Shown here piece by piece: positions 4,123-7,832 of a DNA stretch of 10,268 bases (position 1 is the stretch's first letter; each line of letters begins with the position of its first letter). A program made the position numbers and the translations under genes. The notes beneath the pieces were generated by a model. That model did no database searches and was not told the DNA's origin. It was given only the letters and a program-made list of their open reading frames with translations. Origin of the DNA: Desulfobacterales bacterium (GTDB lineage Bacteria; Desulfobacterota; Desulfobacteria; Desulfobacterales; C00003106); assembly GCA_030613165.1 (NCBI GenBank), contig JAUWMN010000029.1:1-10268 (forward strand), read 5' to 3'.

Positions 4123-4214
4123 GTAACTACTCAGGTTCACGGTTCACGGTTCAAGGGTTAACGGTTCAAGGTTAGAAAGAGATCAACCTGAACTCTGAAC
4201 CATGAACCTAACAA
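4123..4214. repeat. Heptad-repeat element, long copy
   Basis: This intergenic element is built from 7-base units. AGGTTCA (4133), CGGTTCA (4140), CGGTTCA (4147), AGGGTTA (4154), an 8-base unit ACGGTTCA (4161) and AGGTTAG (4169) run on the + strand. The complementary word follows as TGAACTC (4189), TGAACCA (4196) and TGAACCT (4203). The two halves can fold back: 4133-4153 pairs with 4189-4209 at 18 of 21 positions. Both ends recur, inverted, at 7786-7832. The element sits between the HDOD stop and the ribosome site of the next gene, so it would lie in the leader of the receiver gene. No U-rich tail follows the fold-back, so it does not look like a simple terminator. Confidence 0.85.
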
Positions 4215-4225
4215 GTGGTGAGGCT

Positions 4226-4651
4226 ATGGCTTATAATGTTTTGATAGTGGACGATTCTCCCTCCATACGGTCGGCGGTTAAAAAGATTATTGAAATATCG
4301 GGGTTTGACGTAGGAGAATATTTTGAGGCCGCCAACGGCAAGGATGCGTTGTCAGTGCTTGAGGACAACTGGGCAGATGTAATACTAACTGATATTCACA
4401 TGCCGGTTATGGATGGCATATCCTTTTTTAAAGAGGTGTTAAAAGATCCTCTACTGTCGTCCATACCTGTTGTTTTTGTTACAACAGAAGGAAGTGAAGG
4501 GGGAATCGAAGAAAGTTATAAGATGGGAGCAAAGGGATACATTAAAAAGCCGTTTAAACCTGAAGAGATCAGAAAGGTTTTAGTAGAAGTGCTGGGGGAA
4601 CCGGATGGAACAAGAGAAGACACTCCAAGTCTTGAAGGAAGTGATTTTTAG
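4226..4651 (+). CDS. CheY-like single-domain response regulator with a short acidic tail
   Basis: A stand-alone receiver domain of 141 residues, expected to be phosphorylated by CheA. The acidic pair is Asp9-Asp10, the phosphoacceptor is Asp56 (LTDIHMP), the switch Thr is Thr86 or Thr87 (FVTTEGS) and the conserved Lys is Lys108 (KKPF). A tail of about 15 residues after the last helix ([17 protein letters not shown]) is longer than in canonical CheY. Its coding bases are shared with the next gene (47-base overlap). I chose the ATG at 4226 because MAYNVLIVDDS is the normal family start and GGTGAGG lies just before it. The in-frame ATG at 4202 is created by the repeat element and adds eight residues without a family match. 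Its output (motor, CheX partner or other) cannot be told from sequence. Confidence 0.93.
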   Translation: MAYNVLIVDDSPSIRSAVKKIIEISGFDVGEYFEAANGKDALSVLEDNWADVILTDIHMPVMDGISFFKEVLKDPLLSSIPVVFVTTEGSEGGIEESYKMGAKGYIKKPFKPEEIRKVLVEVLGEPDGTREDTPSLEGSDF

Positions 4652-5066
4652 CGTGTTTGAAACGATGTTTTTCCTTTTCCCGGAAGCGGTTGAAAGCGAA
4701 AAGGATCGCCCCGTAAATCCAGATGAGTATTTCAGGGCATTTCTTTATCTTAATGATAATAAATGGTTGCTGATTTTACGAGGATCTGAAAAGTTGGCTG
4801 ATACCATGGCAAAGAATTTCCTCGGGCAGGAAGGGCCGGTCGATGAAGCTGAGGTTGCGGATGTGTTTAGGGAAGCTGTTAATGTCATAGCGGGGAATTT
4901 CTTACTGAAGTTGGACGGTGGAGACCGTGTTTCTCTTGGTGTTCCAGAAGTGGAGAAATGTAGAAGATTCCACAGAGAAGAGACTGTAAGAGAGTTTGAC
5001 GGGGACCTGGTGTTTAATCTTGGCGGCGAGTTTTGCGAGGTGTCCATAAAGGGCATAGATGTATGA
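4605..5066 (+). CDS. CheX-like (CheC/CheX family) chemotaxis phosphatase, first copy
   Basis: A 153-residue protein that I place in the CheC/CheX/FliY phosphatase group from its active-site helix, [11 protein letters not shown]. This fits the E-x-x-N signature with Glu90 and Asn93, the residue numbers also found in the second, clearer CheX at 6151. A LKLDG stretch follows, comparable to KTLDG in that second copy. Overall similarity is otherwise low, so it is a diverged paralogue. The family role is hydrolysis of CheY-phosphate, and CheD can be a partner. The ATG at 4605 has GGGGGAA ending 4 bases upstream and lies inside the preceding receiver gene, overlapping it by 47 bases. The stop overlaps the cheB start as ATGA. 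This tight packing implies co-translation with the receiver and CheB. It may act specifically on the receiver it overlaps (inference). Confidence 0.8.
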
Positions 5067-6103
5067 GCGATATAAAGGTATTAATAGTAGATGATTCAGC
5101 TATTGTCCGAAAGATTTTTTCTGAAGAGCTTTCAAAAGAGAAAGGGATAAAAATAGTCGGGACTGCTCCTGATCCCTATGTCGCCAGGGACAAGATTGTC
5201 CAATTAAAACCGGATGTTATTACCCTTGATGTCGAAATGCCCCGCATGGATGGGATTACTTTTTTAAAAAAGTTGATGAAATATTATCCACTTCCTGTTA
5301 TTATAGTAAGTTCTTTGACACCCAAGGGTGGTAAGATGGCCCTGGACGCAATCGAAAGCGGCGCTATTGAAGTCCTTGCCAAGCCCGGATCATCATATTC
5401 TATTGGAGATATGAGTTGTCAGCTTGCTGACAAGATTAGGGCGGCAGCTCGCGCAAGAATTCCAAGGGTAAAAGAAAACAGGGATTCAAGCTCAGATGAT
5501 AAACGCGTGGTTGTGGCAAGCAAGGCGCTGAAAAAAACGAGTAACAAAGTTATTGCAATTGGGGCATCTACGGGAGGCACAGAGGCGTTAAAGAATGTTT
5601 TGACAAAACTTCCTTACACCAGCCCCGGTGTGCTTGTTGTACAGCATATGCCCCCTAATTTTACTACCGCATTTGCTGAACGGCTCAACGGAATGTGTCA
5701 GATTAATGTAAAAGAGGCAGAAGATGGTGATACGATTGTGCCGGGAAAGGCATTGATAGCGCCGGGCAATTATCATATGCTATTAAGAAGAAGCGGCGCT
5801 CGATATTATGTGTTGATCAAAGATGGGCCTATGGTACGTCACCAGAGGCCGTCTGTTGACGTCCTCTTCAGGTCAGTTGCCGAATATGCGGGAGCAAACG
5901 TAGTAGGGGTGATCCTTACCGGAATGGGATCAGATGGCGCTAATGGAATGCTACAGATGAAAAAAGCCGGAGCAAAGACTATTGCCCAAGATGAAGCATC
6001 TTGCGTTGTCTTTGGTATGCCCGGGGAGGCCATAAAATCCGGGGGTGTAGACAGGGTGGTCAACCTGGACCGGATCGCGCAAGAGATTATAAACAGTGTG
6101 TGA
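5063..6103 (+). CDS. cheB: Chemotaxis response regulator / protein-glutamate methylesterase CheB
   Basis: CheB removes methyl groups from receptor glutamates when phosphorylated by CheA, giving adaptation. The 346 residues form a receiver (about 4-125) with Asp10-Asp11, phosphoacceptor Asp56 in TLDVEMP and Lys107 in AKPGS. A charged linker (about 130-160) leads to the methylesterase domain (about 162-345). The catalytic triad is visible: Ser169 in GASTGG, His195 in VQHMP and Asp291 in LTGMGSDG. Domain order and length are standard. The ATG at 5063 overlaps the previous stop by four bases and has AAAGGG 9 bases upstream. A longer TTG-initiated frame from 5033 would add ten residues with no family match. 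The gene is complete and apparently functional. No CheR methyltransferase is encoded in the window, so it must lie elsewhere. Confidence 0.97.
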
Positions 6104-6150
6104 GTTGAACACTATTTCATTAACGATAAACAGACGGAGAGTGTGAAAGA

Positions 6151-6615
6151 ATGGATGTAAAGCTTATTAATCCGTTTATTTCGGCAACGGTTGAAGTGCT
6201 CGGAACCATGGCTTTTACCAAAGCAAGTGTGGGCAAGCCTTATCTAAAGAAGGAAGAAGTTGCGACGGGAGACGTTTCAGGGGTTATCGGCTTGACCGGC
6301 GAAAGAAATGGCAGCGTGTCCGTTAGCTTTGCCGAAGATTGTATTCTAAAGATTGTTTCAAACATGCTGGGGGAAGAATACAGTGTTGTTAATGATGATA
6401 TTAAAGATGCAGTCGGTGAATTGACCAATATGATTTCAGGGCAAGCGCGGAAGACGTTAGATGGAATAGGGTATAAATTTGATGCAGCTATTCCTACGGT
6501 AGTCGTGGGTAAAGATCACGTTATATCACACATTTCGCGTGGACCTATGGTTGCTATACCGTTTGATACCCCGAATGGCCCGTTTACAATAGAAATTTGT
6601 TTTGATGAGGAATGA
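6151..6615 (+). CDS. cheX: Chemotaxis phosphatase CheX
   Basis: CheX is a small cytoplasmic phosphatase that hydrolyses CheY-phosphate. The 154-residue protein starts with the characteristic INPFISATVEVLGTMAF segment and has the active-site helix AVGELTNMISGQAR, giving Glu90 and Asn93 of the E-x-x-N motif. A second region with FTIEICF closes the sheet, and the length is usual for the family. The ATG at 6151 has CGGAG about 11 bases upstream. The 47-base gap after cheB holds no convincing promoter. A run of nine T follows the stop, but I see no hairpin before it, so I do not call a terminator. It lies directly before the canonical cheY, its likely substrate. With the diverged copy at 4605 the operon encodes two such proteins. 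Confidence 0.94.
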   Translation: MDVKLINPFISATVEVLGTMAFTKASVGKPYLKKEEVATGDVSGVIGLTGERNGSVSVSFAEDCILKIVSNMLGEEYSVVNDDIKDAVGELTNMISGQARKTLDGIGYKFDAAIPTVVVGKDHVISHISRGPMVAIPFDTPNGPFTIEICFDEE

Positions 6616-7603: not shown

Positions 7604-7611
7604 TGACTTGG

Positions 7612-7737
7612 TCATTGATCATTGATCATCTGTCATTGATAAATGTTAAATGATAAATGCCAGATGTTCGTCTATCCTCTGTCCTCTAATCAGCCATGAG
7701 CTTTGAGCTTTCATCAATCCCTCCAATGCCCAATTCT
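7612..7737. repeat. Drifting 18-unit heptad array
   Basis: From 7612 to 7737 the sequence can be read as 18 consecutive 7-base units with no register shift. Neighbouring units are alike, yet the word changes along the array. TCATTGA fills 7612, 7619 and 7633. TAAATGT, TAAATGA and TAAATGC fill 7640-7660. TCCTCTG and TCCTCTA fill 7675-7688. ATGAGCT and TTGAGCT fill 7696-7709. CAATGCC and CAATTCT fill 7724-7737. No gene is visible here on either strand. The unit length matches the heptads of the elements at 4123 and 7786, although the words differ. Confidence 0.8.
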
Positions 7738-7745
7738 ATTTTTTC

Positions 7746-7772
7746 TTGATTTATATTCAGCTATACTATAAT
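7746..7772 (+). promoter_or_regulatory. Weak candidate sigma-70 promoter before the sigma-54 activator
   Basis: TTGATT (7746-7751) and a perfect TATAAT (7767-7772) are separated by 15 bases, shorter than the usual 17. Transcription would start near 7779, at the edge of the inverted heptad element, and run into the activator gene at 7858. The region is AT-rich, so a chance match is possible. Confidence 0.25.
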
Positions 7773-7785
7773 TAAAGTACTCAGG

Positions 7786-7832
7786 TTGTTAGGTTCACCG
7801 TGAACCCTTGAACCGTGAACCTGAGTAGTTAC
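7786..7832. repeat. Heptad-repeat element, short inverted copy
   Basis: Read on the minus strand, this 47-base segment begins with the same 24 bases as 4123-4146. It continues with AGGGTT (matching 4154-4159) and ends in TGAACCTAACAA (matching 4203-4214). Relative to the long copy it lacks exactly one CGGTTCA unit (4147-4153) and most of the interior, keeping only CACGG there. Flanking TACTCAGGTT (7778-7787) and AACCTGAGTA (7819-7828) are perfectly complementary, so the leader of the downstream activator gene could form a hairpin. It lies 26 bases before that gene's ATG. Confidence 0.82.

Follow-up and report, generated by a model that had tools for sequence, protein, structure and literature searches.

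What are the two inverted heptad repeats that stand within a chemotaxis gene cluster of a Desulfobacterales bacterium, and how did they arrive there? The stretch of DNA analysed, the window, is 10,268 nucleotides long and is the entire contig G000:C194 of an incomplete genome (G000; 1.77 Mb, 286 contigs, 67% complete). An initial annotation had noticed the pair and suggested a discrete, possibly mobile element. The pair is real: 24 terminal bases are identical in its two copies, and among the inverted repeats listed for the window the longest is that of the arms 4123-4162 and 7793-7832 (40 nt, 85% complementary). We propose, with a probability of about 0.7, that the repeats are non-autonomous elements of the kind known as miniature inverted-repeat transposable elements (MITEs), whose GTAACTRCTCAGG ends are used in trans by an IS66-type transposase and whose parent belongs to a wider set of cassettes carrying an IVP gene. 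Under this proposal, the transposase would act on the GTAACTRCTCAGG ends and duplicate 8 bp of target, and the parent would consist of a gene of ~360 bp and two flanking arrays, inverted relative to each other and built from one 7- or 8-bp unit, the whole lodged in short intergenic gaps.

Both are members of a dispersed family, marked by the terminal inverted repeats GTAACTRCTCAGG and by target-site duplications of 8 bp. The exact 15-mer GTAACTRCTCAGGTT occurs 64 times in three congeners (15 in G000, 21 in G001 and 28 in G002); it is missing from G003, of the same genus. Outside these congeners we found five copies in G026 and one each in G044, G019 and G006, so that 7 of 58 genomes carry it overall, while the same 15-mer written backwards matched once across all 58. 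Allowing up to 3 mismatches, a search of G000 for the shared end returned 29 forward and 21 reverse matches, compared with 12 and 16 for the backwards control. From the loci examined, which do not amount to a genome-wide census, we collected 47 distinct paired elements; two (L067, L090) are probably chance pairs, and leaving them out gives 45. All 47 have terminal inverted repeats, as MITEs do, and the target-site duplication has a fixed length of 8 bp, as in both MITEs and IS66 derivatives. At this length the flanking bases of the two sides agree at 66%, versus 33% in swapped pairs, and 11 of the 47 elements are perfect. Flank lengths of 3-7 and 9-13 give 29-41% agreement versus 28-33% in swapped pairs, with at most 2 perfect. 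At least seven of the eight bases match in 20 of 45 elements, compared with 10 of 1980 swapped pairs, and the target bases are 75% A+T. Recurrent copies, inverted ends and target-site duplications thus bear out the suggestion of a discrete mobile element, for which GTAACTAC is the recognised terminus.

A gene-bearing relative indicates what these elements once held. In G026 the same ends and heptads enclose an open reading frame of 130 codons within 474 bp, bounded by a duplication matching at 7/8 bases. The frame is an IVP gene (PF05635, E 1.3e-29), and its protein has solved relatives (2GSC, 2RLD). Of the 46 other elements, 15 contain scraps of the IVP gene at E<1e-3, and in a few of these the best match extends into an arm; reversed elements, used as a control, gave one match, at E 0.93, and none at E<1e-3. 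The window copies therefore look like MITE-like deletion derivatives. Interiors vary, as had been supposed: one insertion site with the same flanks in two species is filled by 80 bp in G000 and, in G001, by 255 bp that include an IVP-gene scrap, and at another shared site the element measures 131 versus 124 bp. Since some insertions are common to two species, they are older than the species split. A further shared site hinted at by BLAST (L150/L158) aligned poorly and was not used. Separately, G000 carries a second set of IVP-scrap elements (L305, L307, L309), which have GTTACGG heptads and lack GTAAC ends.

The two window copies, both situated between protein genes, are made up as follows.

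4123..4214, plus strand: element copy 1, truncated on the right relative to the complete 51-bp element at the orthologous G001 site.
4123..4137, plus strand: left terminal inverted repeat of copy 1, GTAACTACTCAGGTT, an exact family terminus.
4134..4173, plus strand: left arm of copy 1, GGTTCAN heptads (Tandem Repeats Finder, period 7, 5.6 copies).
4168..4186, plus strand: possible trace of an IVP-gene leader, AAGGTTAGAAAGAGATCAA, overlapping the last part of the arm (it matches the IVP element by blastn at 84% across 19 nt, with an E of 0.95 that is weak by itself).
4187..4214, plus strand: right arm of copy 1, NTGAACC heptads, cut after TGAACCTAACAA (from the sequence and the G001 alignment).
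7773..7832, minus strand: element copy 2, 60 bp, with both terminal repeats (paired-end search, row L009).
7773..7787, plus strand: second terminal repeat of copy 2, degenerate, TAAAGTACTCAGGTT, lying outside the coordinates of the initial annotation.
7818..7832, minus strand: exact terminal repeat of copy 2, GTAACTACTCAGGTT, an exact family terminus.

Several details of the first description change on this evidence. The sequence TGAACCTAACAA, taken at first for the terminus, is subterminal, because the end recurs on both sides, pointing inward, in many copies. Copy 2 continues to 7773, where its second end is inverted relative to the other and carries three changes within its first five bases; copy 1 has lost its right end. 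At the orthologous copy-1 site, G001 has its complete element (51 bp, versus 92 bp in the window) and then ~33 bases before the cheY ribosome-binding site. Those bases are missing in the window, where the remnant, its right terminal repeat deleted, adjoins the ribosome-binding site. The interiors do not differ by exactly one unit and a deletion, since copy 1 additionally holds AAGGTTAGAAAGAGATCAA; motifs nearly identical to it occur in the sibling elements L136, L137, L080 and L150. Inversion of 4215-7785, which the pair had seemed to permit, is not supported because the block keeps its orientation in two relatives: G001 has it in one piece, in unchanged orientation and together with both neighbours, and in G002 every matching piece keeps its order and orientation. 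Copy 2 is absent from the corresponding gap in both G001 and G002, and the contents of that gap differ among the three species. A clean empty site was found for neither window copy; in G002 the HDOD gene and the element are missing together.

The ends point to a mobiliser. IS66 elements begin with GTAA at their ends. In G026 an element of 3,333 bp (L177:2469-5801) encloses an IS66 transposase gene (PF03050) between ends that are perfect inverted repeats over 17 bases, and the family end shares 12 of the first 13 bases with it, a resemblance expected of IS66 derivatives. Known IS66 members make 8-bp duplications (PMC3281130; this and the other papers cited below are represented by excerpts). 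Elsewhere, IS66 was found as a second, broken copy in G026 and once in G006. By this comparison of ends and duplication lengths, IS66 is probably the mobiliser of the window's subfamily, and the window repeats look like relics of one subfamily in which IS66-like ends are joined to an IVP heptad cassette. The loci of the two Y1 genes found in G000 (L058, L059) are free of TACTCAGG-type ends, and Y1/RAYT was rejected as the mobiliser. Within the G026 IS66-family element, L177:2696-3571 is an open reading frame with a DruA domain (PF14236, E 3.6e-34), a domain named from the Druantia anti-phage system.

A number of observations weigh against our proposal. Fewer than seven of the eight flanking bases match in 25 of 45 elements, and copy 2 itself matches at 4/8. 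The window copies hold at most a weak trace of the IVP gene (the leader in copy 1, E 0.95). One of 13 bases in the IS66 element L177 departs from the family end, and the element has no 8-bp duplication of its own. A search for IS66 transposase found none in G000, G001 or G003 and only a fragment in G002, in genomes that are 67-84% complete, and no autonomous partner with the same ends was found in G000 (67% complete), where IS66 and Y1 were the only transposase families searched. Finally, target duplications are lacking at most IVP cassettes built from other units: a perfect 8-bp duplication with matching ends was present in 1 of 85 loci, and a general target duplication for IVP cassettes was rejected.

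One alternative keeps the MITE-like interpretation and gives the role of mover to another transposase, so far unseen, which likewise duplicates 8 bp; the resemblance to IS66 ends would then be fortuitous or distant. The failure to find an IS66 gene in G000, G001 and G003 is in its favor, as is a Geminocystis locus (L376) in which an IVP cassette sits inside another terminus type with an 8-bp duplication; IVP cassettes can therefore ride with different ends. We nevertheless consider this alternative unlikely, given that 12 of 13 terminal bases are common to the family and an IS66 element in G026, a genome that itself carries the family.

It is useful to place the window's subfamily within the wider distribution of IVP genes. 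Profile searches detected such genes in 7 of 8 related genomes and, across the phylum, in 70 of 118, and a GTDB scan was taken up through the best 80 of 567 confirmed loci. Flanks of 130 bp were called periodic at a tandem periodicity score of at least 10 and inverted at a left-right score of at least 10, with control segments 770-900 bp away at the same loci. For the related genomes, where dropping four short partial matches left 26 of 30 loci, 32 of 52 flanks were periodic (25, 5 and 2 at lags 7, 8 and 9) versus 3 of 49 controls, and 22 of 26 loci were inverted versus 0 of 23. The 30 best-scoring loci of the phylum sample, from 30 genomes, gave 37 of 60 periodic flanks (31, 3 and 3 at lags 7, 8 and 9) versus 1 of 56, and 22 of 30 inverted pairs versus 0 of 26. 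For the best 80 of 567 GTDB loci the counts were 85 of 154 (41, 42 and 2 at these lags) versus 8 of 146, and 49 of 74 versus 5 of 67. The samples overlap slightly, L210 and L280 being G026 loci already present as L120 and L108. Thus, IVP genes of many phyla lie mostly between inverted 7- or 8-bp arrays, and a sizeable minority of loci have no arms by these scores. ParE toxin genes at the 30 best-scoring loci of the phylum sample had 0 of 60 periodic flanks and 1 of 30 inverted pairs.

A second gene family shows a similar arrangement. The G000 orthologue of the L098 IVP site is a different cassette with octad arms, and PF13366 (PDDEXK_3, GxxExxY-like) was tried because this cassette held, by eye, an apparent GxxExxY-like fragment; that fragment is not among the PF13366 profile hits. 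Across 30 PF13366 loci, 15 of 59 flanks were periodic at 8-10 bp versus 1 of 57 controls, and 16 of 29 pairs were inverted versus 0 of 27. In L311-L340, PDDEXK_3/GxxExxY genes often lie between inverted 8-10-bp arrays, with units such as CGCAGAGA, CACAGAGG and CGCAAAGA.

Cassettes also come and go. IVP-like matches were present in 31 plasmid records, two of them annotated avd. At 12 plasmid IVP loci, 11 had 7- or 8-mer arrays on one or both sides and 9 an inverted score of at least 10; the exceptions include L381, with arrays in direct orientation, and L379, without arrays. Several of the genes occupy gaps in apparent operons, between nrdB and nrdA (L371), cas6 and cas4 (L372, L381), cas10 and cmr3 (L374), or conjugation genes (L375, L377). 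We compared four orthologous plasmid sites, drawing on 11 further loci picked among the matches listed, and each site occurs with and without the gene: L371 versus L389; L375 and L388 versus L385 and L387, with L386 a gene-less array; L373 versus L390, L391 and L392; and L380 and L395 versus L393 and L394. At the L380/L395 site, inspection by eye shows ATTCTAA/ATTCTAG, ~7 bp that include the upstream stop codon, on either side. A clear duplication was not seen at the other three sites, one of which, the conjugation site, has a further difference of some 35 bases. In G001 and G002 the L096 IVP site is not quite empty, as two heptad units are left there.

The arms of a cassette match each other and little else. 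We pooled 112 of 136 loci, having removed fused, broken, truncated and repeated ones by hand (the L108/L280 duplicate stayed). An inverted score of at least 12 was reached by 75 of 112 own pairs versus 17 of 666 swapped pairs, and wherever both arms were periodic at lags 7-9 the period agreed (52 of 52; 31 sevens, 18 eights, 3 nines). Read inward, the arms are G+T-rich (left 57 versus 15, right 59 versus 8). Among 61 seven-mer cassettes no unit was seen more than twice. The repeat unit is therefore private to each cassette and common to its two arms. Copying from arm to arm was rejected: variant units do not follow a mirrored order (p<0.05 in 2 of 53 loci; combined p 0.998), and the arms are therefore not simple copies of one another. 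Stop codons as a reason for non-triplet periods were likewise rejected, the excess being modest (59 of 92 units, versus 47.8 +/- 3.5 shuffled) and 4 of 92 units being nine-mers. Unit number is probably altered by slippage, and the IVP protein may act on the arms or on their RNA stem.

A route through RNA would make such a stem central: the arms would pair around the IVP message, an outside reverse transcriptase would copy it back into DNA, and the Avd-like protein would help. The IVP protein is homologous to Avd, an accessory protein of diversity-generating retroelements (PMC10053308), rRNA intervening sequences have complementary ends around an S23 gene (PMC4990558), most IVP cassettes lack a target duplication, and stems are strong, with folding z from -3.6 to -11.8 over six sequences and -5.55 for copy 2 as RNA. 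However, in the window's subfamily the ends resemble those of DNA transposons, the target duplication is 8 bp, and the terminal repeats do not covary; in one element, L007, both ends carry matching changes compared with the G001 orthologue, but selection for pairing was rejected at 2 joint changes versus 1.56 expected over 45 elements. We regard this route as improbable.

It is much harder to accept that the repeats are immobile regulatory or structural hairpins under selection, whether similar to repetitive extragenic palindromes or serving as regulator-binding sites. In Geobacter, heptad arrays carry an annotation as regulator sites (PMC2700814), in Beggiatoaceae a regulatory role has been proposed for them (PMC4679880), heptamer repeats are described as generally not associated with mobile elements (PMC4692102), and copy 1 does adjoin the cheY ribosome-binding site. 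Such hairpins would not account for 8-bp duplications, for exact ends missing from G003 or for a copy-2 gap that differs in each species, and both Y1 transposase genes of G000 are unflanked by these ends. Ordinary simple repeats made by slippage and inverted by chance would explain why unit number differs between orthologous copies (L375, L388, by eye) and are already contradicted by the conserved non-repetitive ends, the target duplications and the swapped-pair controls.

Our proposal of MITE-like elements used in trans relates the window copies to several known systems. Like IS66-derived MITEs, they have ends near those of an IS66 element, an 8-bp duplication, no transposase and many copies; unlike them, their interior consists of inverted heptad arms and IVP-gene scraps rather than a deleted IS66, and no IS66 was found in the host genome as assembled (67% complete). 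Like the intervening sequences of 23S rRNA, they are small and have complementary ends, and the L069/L120 relative, in contrast to the window copies, has the S23/IVP reading frame; gene-less shorter forms are known among rRNA insertions as well (PMC4990558, PMC11270868). They differ in lying between protein genes rather than in rRNA and in having arms that are 7- or 8-bp tandem arrays, so the suggested tie runs through the shared gene and the complementary ends only. Intergenic 7-bp arrays also recall the bacterial heptanucleotide repeats (Xanthomonas GGGAATC, Nostoc GGGGATT, those of Calothrix and Geobacter, Beggiatoaceae TAACTGA), including 70 convergent heptamer pairs in X. campestris (PMC4692102). 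Compared by description, the published repeats are treated as simple repeats or regulatory sites, with no IVP gene, whereas the Nostoc-type plasmids examined here have heptad-armed IVP genes. As for Avd, a homologous four-helix bundle (PMC10053308), the two avd loci lack repeat arms and adjoin a reverse transcriptase. We found no link of IVP with heptad arms in a mostly non-subscription literature, nor in the available passages of PMC2700814, PMC4679880, PMC4990558, PMC4692102, PMC3936711, PMC11270868, PMC10053308, PMC3281130 and PMC8934634.

A broader scheme may tie these systems together, although we would put it at slightly below even odds. Small mobile cassettes with an IVP/S23 gene, or a GxxExxY/PDDEXK_3 gene, between inverted arrays of 7 or 8 bp (up to 10 bp) would be spread across bacteria, with a unit and period specific to each cassette yet common to both arms. 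Gene-less derivatives would make up much of the known heptanucleotide repeats, S23-bearing rRNA intervening sequences would be cassettes that landed in rRNA, and the arms may arise by repeat-adding (template-slipping) synthesis involving the Avd-like IVP protein. The function and origin of rRNA intervening sequences have been called unclear, with a mobile-element origin already hypothesised (PMC4990558), and heptameric repeats were said to have no detailed literature (PMC4692102); if the scheme is true, a gene-bearing, mobile, non-rRNA form with heptad arms links the two. IVP genes have also been reported among cas genes (PMC3936711), where we find them in L372, L374 and L381; these would then be inserted cassettes, not parts of CRISPR systems. 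The cassette interpretation gives predictions that are testable in cultured cyanobacteria.

The surroundings of the window copies add minor observations. Rfam, at its gathering threshold, has no match in the window or in L069, L215 and L095. Profile matches in the window identify HDOD (PF08668), CheX (PF13690) and a sigma-54 activator; the names cheA, cheB, cheD and cheY come from reading the translations, and a 149-aa open reading frame at 7154 gave nothing above the cut-off of the profile search. The call for cheY begins at an ATG at 4202, within copy 1, and the start kept in G001 and G002 is ATGGCTTAT at 4226. The HDOD gene between the cheD-like and cheY genes is missing in G002 (L124, G002:C33, near locus position 370-385). 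Ahead of copy 2, the gap at 7606-7745 contains TGATCAT/TGATAAA heptads (7608-7659), TGAGCTT (7697-7711) and AATCCCTC-like octads, and in G001 and G002 it holds other short repeats, as if hit repeatedly. In G001, the gap matching window positions 7604-7840 (L123, G001:C184) carries a distinct small element, GTAAATACTCAG...CTGAATAGTTGC, with a non-heptad interior, which is perhaps a second subfamily.

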